Positions 5,827 to 26,406 of a stretch of 64,000 bases of DNA are shown piece by piece. The DNA is taken from the NCBI RefSeq assembly GCF_002868735.1, contig NZ_CP025611.1, forward strand, positions 1,482,501 to 1,546,500, read 5' to 3'. The notes beneath the pieces were generated by a model. The model searched no databases and was not told the DNA's origin. It saw only the letters and a list, made by a program, of their open reading frames with translations. The translations under genes and the position numbers were made by a program. This DNA is from Niveispirillum cyanobacteriorum (GTDB lineage: Bacteria; Pseudomonadota; Alphaproteobacteria; Azospirillales; Azospirillaceae). The first letter of the stretch is position 1. The number at the start of each line of letters is the position of its first letter.

Positions 5827-6687
5827 CTATCCCAGCAGGACGATCCCGTAATCGCCGATCACGCGGAAGCCCAGCGACAGATAGGCCCGGCGCGCTGGCT
5901 CGTTCTGCTTTCCCGTGAACAGCACCGCCATGGCCGCCCCGTCGTCCTGGGCCGCCAGCAAGGCCCCGGCTACCGCCGCCCGCGCCAGTCCTCGGCCACG
6001 CAACCACTCGGGCGTCCACACGCCACCGATCTGCACCGTGTCGGGGATGCGGGCATTGTGGGTGGCCATGGACAGCGGCACGCCATCGGCACCCGTGACC
6101 ACAAATACGTCGCCCGCCACGACCCAGGCACTGACGTCGGCGGCGGCACGGGCGCGCAGCCCGTCACCATCCGCCTCTCCCAGCGTTTCAACGCAGTAGC
6201 CGACGCGCCATGAGGACAGCAGCGGGATATCGCCGGCGTTGGCCCGCCGCCAGGACAAGCTGCCATCGGCCAGCGACGCCGGCACCTTCAGATCGGACAA
6301 GGACAGATCGAACAGATCTTCCGCCCCGTCCTTCAACATGGGCCGGTCCGGGAACAGAGCATGCACCGCGCGCACCGCCGGCAGCGGCCCGATAATCCCG
6401 GCCACGGCCCGGTCGCCCGCCGCCAGATGAAACCGCGCGAGTTCAACCGCAATGTCCGGCTCCGACTGGATCAGCAGATTGCCATTCCAGGCATGGGACA
6501 CCACGCCGTGGATGGCACCGTCGCCATCCACCAGCGCCGCATAGCGGGCATGAAACCGCTCGGCCCGATCTTCCAGCCCGACGCGCCGCAGGTTGGAACG
6601 CAGGAACATGGATGTTGCCGGGTGGCGGGCCAGATAGGCATCCAGCCGGCCCTCGTCACCCGGCAAGAGCCGGCGGATGAACGTCAT
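5827..6687 (-). CDS. GNAT-family N-acetyltransferase
   Basis: 286 residues. The C-terminal half carries the GNAT acetyl-CoA-binding motif GGVWTPEWLRGRGLARAAV (the R/Q-x-x-G-x-G/A loop), followed by the late motif NEPARRAYLSLGFRVIGDY. The N-terminal half (residues 1-130) is a separate region, MTFIRRLLPGDEGRLDAYLA, as in two-domain GNAT proteins. Substrate is unknown. It starts four bases after the YqeY stop, so the two are probably co-transcribed. Confidence 0.85.
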   Translation of the reverse strand: MTFIRRLLPGDEGRLDAYLARHPATSMFLRSNLRRVGLEDRAERFHARYAALVDGDGAIHGVVSHAWNGNLLIQSEPDIAVELARFHLAAGDRAVAGIIGPLPAVRAVHALFPDRPMLKDGAEDLFDLSLSDLKVPASLADGSLSWRRANAGDIPLLSSWRVGYCVETLGEADGDGLRARAAADVSAWVVAGDVFVVTGADGVPLSMATHNARIPDTVQIGGVWTPEWLRGRGLARAAVAGALLAAQDDGAAMAVLFTGKQNEPARRAYLSLGFRVIGDYGIVLLG

Positions 6688-7150: not shown

Positions 7151-7530
7151 CGGACAACTCCAGGGGACAGGTGAAACAGCCGGCAACATTATCCAAACAG
7201 ACCGGCAGATGCCAGCGAATAGGAATAGGTCGCGTCGCCGCCTGGAAACACCCCTTCTGGACCTGGTTATGCGACACCCAATGATGGCGCGTGGCAGGGG
7301 CGCGCCCACGTTGGTTGACCCCGCGCGCCCGAATGGCTAATTCACCTTCAGAACCGTACCGGCCCTGGCCGGCGCGCGGCATCGGCGCGGCCCTTCGCCC
7401 GGCGGGATTACCCGGCGGATGATCGGACCCGCGACGCGACTGCGGGCAGGCCGCCCCGCCTTTCGGGCGGGAAGGCACGGCCTTTTCACCGACGCTCCGG
7501 CGTCGATCTCGCAGATAAAGGTGCCCGAGA
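7151..7530. other. Intergenic region between yqeY-like gene and carA, long carA leader
   Basis: 380 bases without a convincing gene, holding the divergent promoters of the YqeY gene and carA. A possible carA -35 element TTGACC is at 7315-7320, with TAATTC at 7338-7343 after 17 bases; the -10 match is poor. If this is right the carA leader is about 180 bases. The leader contains several G+C-rich hairpins, including CCCGCC 7455-7460 pairing with GGCGGG 7466-7471, followed by a short T run at 7483-7486. Confidence 0.5.
7315..7343 (+). promoter_or_regulatory. Candidate carA promoter
   Basis: TTGACC (7315-7320), a 17-base spacer, and TAATTC (7338-7343). The -35 element is good and the -10 element is weak, which is common in this group. 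It lies about 190 bases before the carA ATG. Confidence 0.3.
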
Positions 7531-8715
7531 ATGACCGACACCCCGCCGATGGGTTCCCCCACCCGCGCGCCCGCTCCCAAGGGAGCCACGGGCGTTCTCG
7601 TCCTGGCCGATGGTTCGGTCTTCTGGGGACGCGGTGTGGGCGCCGTGAGCCACAGCGTGGGTGAGGTGTGCTTCAACACCTCCCTGACGGGTTATCAGGA
7701 AATCCTGACCGATCCGTCCTATGCCGGTCAGATCATCACCTTCACCTTCCCTCATATCGGCAACGTCGGGACCAACCCGGAAGATATCGAGACGGTGACG
7801 CCGGTGGCGCGCGGTCTGATCATCAAGGCCGACATCACCGAACCCGCCAACTGGCGCGCCACCCAGCATCTGGATGCCTGGCTGAAAAGCCATAATCTGG
7901 TCGGCCTGTCGGGCATCGACACCCGCCGCCTGACCCGCCGCATCCGCGACAATGGCGCCCCTAACGGCGTGATCGCCCATTCGCCCGATGGCGTGTTCGA
8001 TATCGACGCCCTGGTGAAGATCGCTAAGGAATGGCCCGGCCTGGAAGGCATGGATCTGGCCAAGGACGTCACGACCCGCCAGACCTATAGCTGGGATGAA
8101 TCGATCTGGTCGCTGAAGGATGGCTACGGCAAGCAGACCGATCCCAAGCACCATGTCGTCGCCATGGATTTCGGCGCCAAGCGTAACATCCTGCGCTGCC
8201 TCGCGGCATCGGGCTGCAAGGTGACGGTGGTGCCGGCCACCACGACGGCAGAGGAAATCCTGGCCCTGAACCCCGACGGCATTTTCCTGTCCAACGGCCC
8301 CGGCGACCCGGCGGCCACGGGCGAATATGCCGTGCCGACCATCGCGCGGCTGGTGGATAGCGGCAAGGCCGTGTTCGGCATCTGCCTGGGTCACCAGATG
8401 TTGGCCCTGGCACTGGGTGGGCGCACCGTGAAGATGGAGAAGGGCCATCGCGGCGCCAACCATCCGGTGAAGGATATTGCATCGGGCGTTGTGGAGATCA
8501 CCAGCCAGAATCACGGCTTCGTGGTCCTGCGCGAAAGCCTGCCGGAAGAGGTGGAGGTCACCCACGTCTCGCTGTTCGACGGCACCAACGAAGGCATCCG
8601 CCTGTCGGGCCGCCCCGTCTTCTCGGTGCAGTACCATCCCGAAGCCAGCCCGGGCCCGGAGGACAGCCACTATCTGTTCGACCGGTTCATCGCCGCCATC
8701 GAAGGGCGGTATTGA
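7531..8715 (+). CDS. carA: Carbamoyl-phosphate synthase small subunit CarA
   Basis: 394 residues. CarA hydrolyses glutamine and passes ammonia to CarB for carbamoyl phosphate, feeding pyrimidine and arginine synthesis. The N-terminal CPSase domain begins at about residue 20 (GVLVLADGSVFWGRGVGA). The class-I glutamine amidotransferase domain has the nucleophile Cys285 in GICLGHQM and the dyad His369/Glu371 in YHPEASPGP. The oxyanion motif FLSNGPGDP is present. carB is not in the window; instead an unknown gene follows immediately. Confidence 0.97.
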   Translation: MTDTPPMGSPTRAPAPKGATGVLVLADGSVFWGRGVGAVSHSVGEVCFNTSLTGYQEILTDPSYAGQIITFTFPHIGNVGTNPEDIETVTPVARGLIIKADITEPANWRATQHLDAWLKSHNLVGLSGIDTRRLTRRIRDNGAPNGVIAHSPDGVFDIDALVKIAKEWPGLEGMDLAKDVTTRQTYSWDESIWSLKDGYGKQTDPKHHVVAMDFGAKRNILRCLAASGCKVTVVPATTTAEEILALNPDGIFLSNGPGDPAATGEYAVPTIARLVDSGKAVFGICLGHQMLALALGGRTVKMEKGHRGANHPVKDIASGVVEITSQNHGFVVLRESLPEEVEVTHVSLFDGTNEGIRLSGRPVFSVQYHPEASPGPEDSHYLFDRFIAAIEGRY

Positions 8716-24914: not shown

Positions 24915-25541
24915 TCAGCGCCCGCGCGAGCGGTAGGCGTTGATCGCTTCGACCATCTGTTCGGGCGTACTGCCCTTGGCGAAAACGGTCACGAAAGACC
25001 CGTCGGGTGCCAGCAGATAGGCGAAGGTGGAATGGTCCATAAGGTACTGCGTAGGGTCCGGTTCGCCTTGGGAACGGGCGTAATAGACGCGGTATGCCTT
25101 GGCCACGGCGGCAATCTGCTCCGCCGTTCCGGTCAGGCCGATGATGGACGGGTGAAACAGCTTCACATAGTCGGCCAGTACGGGGGGTGTGTCCCGCTCC
25201 GGATCGATGGTGATGAACAGGGGTTGCACGTCGGCGCCGGAGTCGCCCATCAGGTCCATGGCCTGGGCGATGGTCTGCAACTCGGTCGGGCAGATGTCGG
25301 GGCAGAAGGTGTAGCCGAAGAAGACCAGCTTGTACTTGCCCACGAAATCCTTGTCGGTCACGACCCGGCCATCATGGGTGGTCAGGGTGAAGGGCCCGCC
25401 GATGCTGGCCGGTGCGACATTGGTGGCGACGCCAGCCGCCTGCCGCTGATCATGGCGGATGGTCATCCAGGCGATGACAGCCGCCATGATCAGCCCGACC
25501 AGGCAAGCCAGCGCCATCCGTACCAGCCGTTCCCGCTTCAT
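24915..25541 (-). CDS. SCO1/SenC/PrrC family copper chaperone-like protein
   Basis: 208 residues from the ATG at 25541, which follows GGGAGAGGGCTG, a strong ribosome binding site. The open frame extends 67 codons further, but without that signal. One membrane anchor (MALACLVGLIMAAVIAWMTI) precedes a periplasmic thioredoxin fold with the copper motif TFCPDICPTEL (CxxxC) and the ligand His in LMDHSTFAYLL. Sco proteins mature the CuA centre of cytochrome oxidase subunit II, linking this gene to ctaC. Confidence 0.95.
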   Translation of the reverse strand: MKRERLVRMALACLVGLIMAAVIAWMTIRHDQRQAAGVATNVAPASIGGPFTLTTHDGRVVTDKDFVGKYKLVFFGYTFCPDICPTELQTIAQAMDLMGDSGADVQPLFITIDPERDTPPVLADYVKLFHPSIIGLTGTAEQIAAVAKAYRVYYARSQGEPDPTQYLMDHSTFAYLLAPDGSFVTVFAKGSTPEQMVEAINAYRSRGR

Positions 25542-25618: not shown

Positions 25619-26161
25619 ATGGCGGTGCGGATGGTCCGGTTGGCGGCTCTGGTCTTCGGTCTAGCAGCGTGCGGTCCCGCTGTGGCCGCCGAGAAGCCGT
25701 CTTGCGAGGATGAAAGCTTCGGGTGGAGCCAGACCAGCCCATCGCTGAACCTCCGCCATGTCCTGTGTGGGGAGGTGAAGAAGAACGGCGATGTGGTCGG
25801 CATGCATAGCCGCGCCATCATCGACACCGCCCCCGTCAAGGAAGTGCAAGCCCAGCCGCCGCAGGCCGATGGCGTTTACAGCACGAAGGTATTTTTCGAG
25901 AATGGCAAGTCGAAGAACTCCACCTTCTACCCCGACAATTGCAGCGTGGAGCAGGTGACGAACTCCATCCTTTACGCCGTCAAGCACAGCCACGCGGCGG
26001 GTAAACCCTGGGGCAAGCTGGGTTGTTCAGCACCGGCCAAACCGGATGCGAAATACTGCACGGGGCCGGGCGGGGCGCGTTTCGTCATCCGTTTCGCGGA
26101 ATTTGACGATGGCCGCATCAATACCGCGTTCCCGCAAATGGGCGAAAGCTGCCCACAATGA
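25619..26161 (+). CDS. Secreted EndoU-like nuclease domain protein
   Basis: 180 residues. Residues 1-24 form a signal peptide; LAAC at 15-18 could also be a lipobox. The mature part reads like the bacterial EndoU ribonuclease domain: RHVLCGEVKKNG (His47), GMHSRA (His63, sixteen residues on, the spacing of the catalytic histidine pair), Lys97/Lys99 ahead of STFYPDNCSVEQV, and the closing motif RINTAFP (residues 167-172). EndoU domains cut RNA and are used as toxin tips in contact-dependent inhibition. Free secreted forms also exist. Mature cysteines (29, 50, 108, 136, 147, 178) could form disulfides. The stop overlaps the next start (ATGA). The family call is by motif memory, not by search. 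Confidence 0.72.
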   Translation: MAVRMVRLAALVFGLAACGPAVAAEKPSCEDESFGWSQTSPSLNLRHVLCGEVKKNGDVVGMHSRAIIDTAPVKEVQAQPPQADGVYSTKVFFENGKSKNSTFYPDNCSVEQVTNSILYAVKHSHAAGKPWGKLGCSAPAKPDAKYCTGPGGARFVIRFAEFDDGRINTAFPQMGESCPQ

Positions 26162-26406
26162 TCCATGATCCTGCGGAATGGCTGGCCGACTGGCTGCAAA
26201 CCGACATGGGCGGCGATGCGGATGGCATCGCCGCCTTCGTCGTCGGCCTGAACGGGGGTAAGCGACCGGAGCGGCGCGTCGGCAACCTCTATGCGGCCAG
26301 CGTGGGGGATGAGGGCCTGCTGCTGGAAAACATCATGCAGGATGATTGGCCGCCGGTTCTGGTGCCACGGGAGATGGCGCTGGCGGGGTTGAGCGCGGGC
26401 GGATAA
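26158..26406 (+). CDS. Small acidic protein, candidate EndoU immunity protein
   Basis: 82 residues, starting inside the EndoU-like stop codon (ATGA overlap), hence translationally coupled. Strongly acidic: about 13 Asp/Glu against five or six Lys/Arg, with motifs MIHDPAEWLADWLQTD and LLLENIMQDDWPPVLVPREM. No signal peptide or membrane segment, so cytosolic. I know no family for it. A small acidic protein coupled to a nuclease is the usual form of an immunity protein, but nothing in the sequence proves this. It converges on the AsmA-like gene. Confidence 0.65.
   Translation: MIHDPAEWLADWLQTDMGGDADGIAAFVVGLNGGKRPERRVGNLYAASVGDEGLLLENIMQDDWPPVLVPREMALAGLSAGG

Follow-up and report, generated by a model that had tools for sequence, protein, structure and literature searches.

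An exported, free-standing EndoU nuclease and a small acidic protein as a probable ribonuclease-inhibitor pair in Niveispirillum cyanobacteriorum

Bacterial EndoU toxins described so far are the tips of large delivered proteins. In Escherichia coli STEC_O31, an EndoU-fold nuclease (CdiA-CT) followed by a small inhibitor (CdiI) forms the tip of the giant CdiA, which is secreted by CdiB and delivered on contact (PDB 5HKQ). MafB of Neisseria, which we compare by description, is likewise an exported EndoU ribonuclease (RNase) with a cognate immunity gene, MafI (PMC4287609, PMC9990079), and is a multidomain polymorphic toxin encoded in genomic islands. Rhs-type EndoU tips (Tox-EndoU) lack their own signal peptide and rely on the Rhs carrier. 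On the other hand, barnase-barstar of Bacillus (PF00545/PF01337) combines an exported free-standing BECR RNase with a small acidic cytosolic inhibitor. Here we describe a locus within a 64,000-nucleotide stretch of the Niveispirillum cyanobacteriorum chromosome (contig NZ_CP025611.1, positions 1,482,501 to 1,546,500; hereafter the window), in which a free-standing EndoU nuclease with its own export leader overlaps a gene for a small acidic protein. It is very likely that the two are an exported EndoU RNase and its dedicated cytosolic inhibitor, arranged as in barnase-barstar but built from another nuclease family (EndoU, with two histidines) and another inhibitor family. The features of the pair, in window positions, are as follows.

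25619..26161, + strand: nuclease gene, 180 amino acids (aa), from the list of open reading frames (ORFs) and the sequence
25619..25690, + strand: N-terminal export leader, MAVRMVRLAALVFGLAACGPAVAA, in which a lipobox-like LAAC and an AxA-type site are both possible
26158..26161, + strand: ATGA overlap of the nuclease stop and the small-gene start, from the sequence
26158..26406, + strand: small acidic gene, 82 aa, cytosolic; predicted cognate inhibitor/immunity protein, distant UPF0231/YacL relative

Both genes and their ATGA overlap, as first reported by a sequence-only reading of the window, were confirmed from the ORFs and the sequence. The overlap is consistent with translational coupling of the nuclease and the small gene, and the same -4 overlap was found in several relatives (e.g. 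loci L021-L024, L028, L041 and L044); in L028, where the small gene begins at 2237, it is identical in kind.

The 180-aa protein matched the bacterial EndoU profile PF14436 with an E-value of 1.7e-15 (57.9 bits against a curated cut-off of 25.3, model positions 6-127 of 129), and it was the sole PF14436 match in the genome. Its AlphaFold model (predicted local distance difference test, pLDDT, 88.9) was compared with known structures by VIA, in which rows 1-12 were all EndoU/BECR nucleases (Z 8.4 to 4.1), including Nsp15 (8.4), EndoU 9ftw (7.5), the STECO31 CdiA-CT chain 5hkq_A (6.9) and XendoU (6.6), while the first unrelated row had a Z of 2.6. Foldseek alone gave the nuclease model weak hits, none of them significant, and NCBIfam and PADLOC returned no match for either window protein. 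By profile and fold, the gene is a true EndoU nuclease, as had been proposed from its residues. It consists of the leader and the EndoU domain alone and lacks domains for receptor binding or translocation as well as any pre-toxin domain.

His47, His63 and the closing I-N-T-A-F-P were invariant among 10 relatives. Among 24 diverse relatives, His47, His63, Thr169, Ala170, Phe171 and Pro172 were invariant and Lys99 nearly so, giving the EndoU pattern of two histidines about 15-17 residues apart, a lysine and a C-terminal serine or threonine. Thus the motif of the sequence-only reading stands for the two histidines, Lys99 and INTAFP, but not for Lys97, which was not conserved in the 24 relatives. 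With the catalytic residues of the STECO31 toxin and the 5HKQ data taken from a review (PMC9086364), His47, His63 and Lys99 are the predicted catalytic residues, together with Thr169 in the closing INTAFP, and RNase activity is inferred. Four cysteines (Cys29, Cys50, Cys108 and Cys147) were also invariant across the 24 relatives.

The signal peptide noted earlier was recovered as an N-terminal hydrophobic stretch before the EndoU domain in 24/24 relatives, with the mature nuclease predicted to start near residue 24-28. One small correction is added, namely a lipobox-like LAAC at residues 15-18 (window 25661-25672), which overlaps the leader and was seen both in the window species and in those closest to it. 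Since most other relatives lack LAAC and have an AxA-type site, export through signal peptidase I appears likelier than lipidation.

The 82-aa protein is strongly acidic, as had been stated (isoelectric point 4.2, charge about -9). The top VIA match of its model (pLDDT 93.2), and the best of all chains compared, was 5HKQ chain I, i.e. CdiI, the immunity protein in the complex of the E. coli STEC_O31 EndoU toxin of contact-dependent inhibition (CDI), with a Z of 6.4 over 75/82 residues at 3.1 Å. This Z alone is not conclusive, and the match gains its weight because the partner chain of 5HKQ, the toxin, is matched by the nuclease model; the two window genes, as modelled, thus appear to correspond, one each, to both chains of a single solved toxin-immunity complex. 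Foldseek alone found no significant match for the 82-aa model. Searching the PDB by sequence yielded nothing credible for the nuclease family, and the small-protein family had no detectable sequence similarity to any PDB chain. The Cake/Scone PDB matches of family member P0001 were rejected as short-repeat artefacts, and weak Pfam matches of the small protein to Dpy-30, HD_assoc and Glycos_trans_3N were dismissed as chance.

Independent of the fold, relatives of the small gene were found in the immunity position of recognised polymorphic toxins. In genome G352, an orphan Rhs tip, in which NPYGYVHNPTRWIDPLGLAG is followed by an EndoU domain (PF14436, E 1.4e-29), has such a relative 7 bp downstream, so that it shares both nuclease family and immunity superfamily with the window pair, although the window enzyme stands alone. 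On a Streptomyces plasmid, a relative lies 17 bp downstream of a 671-aa PT-TG and EndoU protein, and an orphan relative, 68% identical to that of G352, is found in a Proteus rhs tip array. In a cyanobacterium (L094, G494:C117, 1102-2084), a UPF0231-like gene, itself a relative of the small gene, has a Barstar gene on either side (PF01337, E 2e-20 and 3e-18); this mixed immunity array follows a DUF6861 protein whose tip is barnase-like. None of the phage records searched carries an immunity relative. The immunity role, which had been flagged as conjecture from the start, gains independent support from the Rhs-EndoU, Streptomyces and barstar-array positions and from the CdiI match, and it is still best worded as a probable role. 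As a separate observation, the Proteus mirabilis rhs locus (L073, 1385-10700) has a series of displaced tips along with orphan immunity genes, and PLSDB lists the 4-Mb sequence as a 'plasmid' when it is evidently a chromosome.

The sequence-only reading would have failed if there were no EndoU match or if homologues never kept the two genes together; neither outcome was seen. When species genomes were scanned, an intact small-gene homologue was found downstream of the nuclease in 25/26 loci, and in most of them the two genes show the -4 overlap or lie <100 bp apart. The 26 loci span Alphaproteobacteria (including Thalassospira), Methylococcaceae, Nitrosomonas, several cyanobacteria and one Myxococcota metagenome-assembled genome (MAG). 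We also examined two even draws, one of 299 Pseudomonadota genomes and one of 194 cyanobacterial genomes. The nuclease was detected in 4/299 of the former, with the small gene in the same 4 and in one genome with a YacL-like match, and in 7/194 of the latter, with the small gene in the same 7 and in one further genome; with query genomes removed, the hypergeometric p of co-occurrence was 9e-7 and 1e-10, respectively. The pairing is thus near-obligate across phyla. The distances of the two proteins are strongly correlated (mirror-tree r 0.92), as would be seen if the pairing were an accident of joint inheritance in a single lineage with no functional link. Shared ancestry accounts for the correlation, which we therefore left out of the evidence for interaction. 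The accident itself is highly improbable, since the pairing recurs in Alpha-, Gamma- and Betaproteobacteria, Cyanobacteria, the Myxococcota MAG and Actinomycetota, and in differing toxin architectures.

Other EndoU proteins of the Pseudomonadota draw, one MuF-like (G231) and one CdiA-like (G293), have different neighbours, so this inhibitor family accompanies only a subset of EndoU nucleases. Two further loci were recorded in the course of the survey. In Paraprochloron terpiosi LD05 (L046, 5870-6426), a frameshift divides the nuclease between two frames, and the small gene is whole. In L067 (G303:C4:519000-531000, reverse complement 7176-7589), the inhibitor family is present a second time, as an orphan 2.7 kb from the nuclease pair.

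The small-protein family was also related to UPF0231/YacL, a family to which no function has been assigned. UPF0231 (PF06062) was matched by 9/23 small-gene homologues (best 3.3e-6); its gathering cut-off was passed by the L094 member (35 against 25 bits) and barely by P0001 (25.3), and a family profile matched a YacL-like protein with an E-value of 5.7e-5. The 82-aa window protein itself, shorter than the ~120 aa of UPF0231/YacL, had no PF06062 match in the Pfam profile search, and the YacL-like gene in G065 lies next to no EndoU gene. Judged by these profiles, the family is distantly related to UPF0231/YacL, and the tie of the window protein is by transitive homology only, because its homologues match PF06062 and it does not. 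Three sets were compared by profile, namely the window group, the other free-standing groups and the Rhs/Streptomyces/barstar-array group; the window group matched the other free-standing groups (E 3e-7), which in turn matched the Rhs/Streptomyces/barstar-array group (E 1e-17).

Perhaps the UPF0231/YacL superfamily consists at root of EndoU inhibitors, with YacL as their descendant (or the inhibitors as descendants of YacL), and free-standing exported EndoU with a UPF0231-like inhibitor is a second barnase-barstar-like system across phyla; we offer this tentatively, as a possibility to which we would not give an even chance. The term UPF0231 was not met in the literature searched, and no paper was found there tying YacL to EndoU toxins. 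For the relatives of UPF0231/YacL, a family one member of which, in E. coli, is found on RNA polymerase, the pair provides a concrete candidate function, the inhibition of EndoU RNases.

Several observations weigh against an inhibitor dedicated to the nuclease. The match to 5hkq_I is middling, and the next structures are chaperones of the type VII secretion system, LcpA (Z 5.7) and SIR_0168 (Z 5.5). E. coli YacL binds RNA polymerase and NusG (PMC8196013), which implies that the family has other roles. When compared directly, the window group and the Rhs-type group matched weakly (prob 51). In Thalassospira australica (L043), the nuclease frame is open and looks intact, and the small gene is reduced to a central remnant, GWEMAMNAHI (6467-6560). 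This speaks for an immunity that is less than absolute in this species, or for an inactive enzyme. Finally, in 2/7 cyanobacteria, near relatives of each other, the small gene is on another contig. The nucleases of L098 (1483-2223) and L099 (reverse complement, 1768-2505) are related to each other, have their small gene on a separate contig and share an A/P-rich insertion, ~35 residues long, ahead of the last strands.

The fold list, the YacL binding data and the UPF0231 matches of homologues would together suit a small protein that serves as a chaperone in export, or one that is YacL-like, associated with transcription and merely sharing the operon. We consider this unlikely, as the top fold match is an EndoU immunity protein and as members of the family occur by themselves, with no EndoU, in immunity arrays, which is unexpected for a chaperone.

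On the preferred reading, that of RNase and inhibitor, the nuclease would be an exported RNase of EndoU fold, probably metal-independent, that carries an export leader, passes the inner membrane unfolded and probably folds with disulfides beyond the cytosol. RNA would be cleaved by His47 and His63, acting as acid and base, with Lys99. The 82-aa protein, its translation coupled to that of the nuclease, would remain in the cytosol and bind nuclease molecules that fold too early or come back in, in the manner of barstar with barnase and CdiI with CdiA-CT. The physical binding, the neutralisation and the site of action are inferred. Found in several phyla, an EndoU that is free-standing, exported and paired with an inhibitor of its own would be the EndoU counterpart of barnase-barstar.

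The window is an Azospirillaceae-type chromosome, with Niveispirillum as the nearest named relatives, and the pair has a SCO1-like gene, divergent, on one side and an AsmA-like gene, convergent, on the other, among housekeeping genes (cytochrome oxidase, ATP synthase), all named by reading their translations. The upstream neighbour is:

24915..25541, - strand: SCO1/SenC-like gene, divergent, outside the pair and given for context; the mechanical ORF begins at 25742

Among 11 genomes of the genus, the nuclease was found in 10, with the small gene directly behind it in 10/10, and one member had no nuclease. The pair resides at a stable chromosomal site within the genus, because the SCO1-like neighbour is conserved in position in 10/10 genus loci, down to about 43% identity. 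This stable location, together with the absence in one member, suggests long residence rather than rapid exchange; the spread between phyla, being sporadic, points to occasional transfer.

The exported RNase and its inhibitor could serve in two ways. One is as an interbacterial weapon, with the nuclease released or delivered into neighbours and the small protein as kin immunity in the strict sense. Relatives of both genes make recognised polymorphic toxin-immunity units (the Rhs tip, the Streptomyces PT-TG toxin, the barstar arrays), the spread over phyla is sporadic, and orphan immunity copies occur in G303, G494 and Proteus, all of which would suit a weapon. Such a role fits less well with a free-standing nuclease that has no domain for receptor binding or translocation and no pre-toxin domain, and with the stable site beside the SCO1-like gene. 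GspD was not found in the window's own genome, and the pair is separated by 1.3 Mb from the sheath gene (VipA/TssB) of a type VI secretion system (T6SS) at G000:C1:2839181-2839639. The presence of T6SS or of a type II secretion system (T2SS) does not track the pair in the ten genomes compared, and at the locus and in these genomes no adjacent or co-occurring delivery system was found for it. We regard the weapon as possible, somewhat short of an even chance.

The other is as a scavenging or extracellular housekeeping RNase, obtaining for instance phosphate and nucleosides from RNA, with the small protein as a cytosolic safety inhibitor and no antagonism; its chance, too, is somewhat short of even. 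The very sporadic presence of the nuclease in both draws is hard to reconcile with such a housekeeping role, as is the kinship of the inhibitor with polymorphic-toxin immunity genes. In its favour, the enzyme is free-standing and exported with conserved cysteines, the locus is stable within the genus, and the EndoU-like protein All2314 is part of the Anabaena exoproteome (PMC10957091), which shows that an EndoU-like protein can be extracellular.
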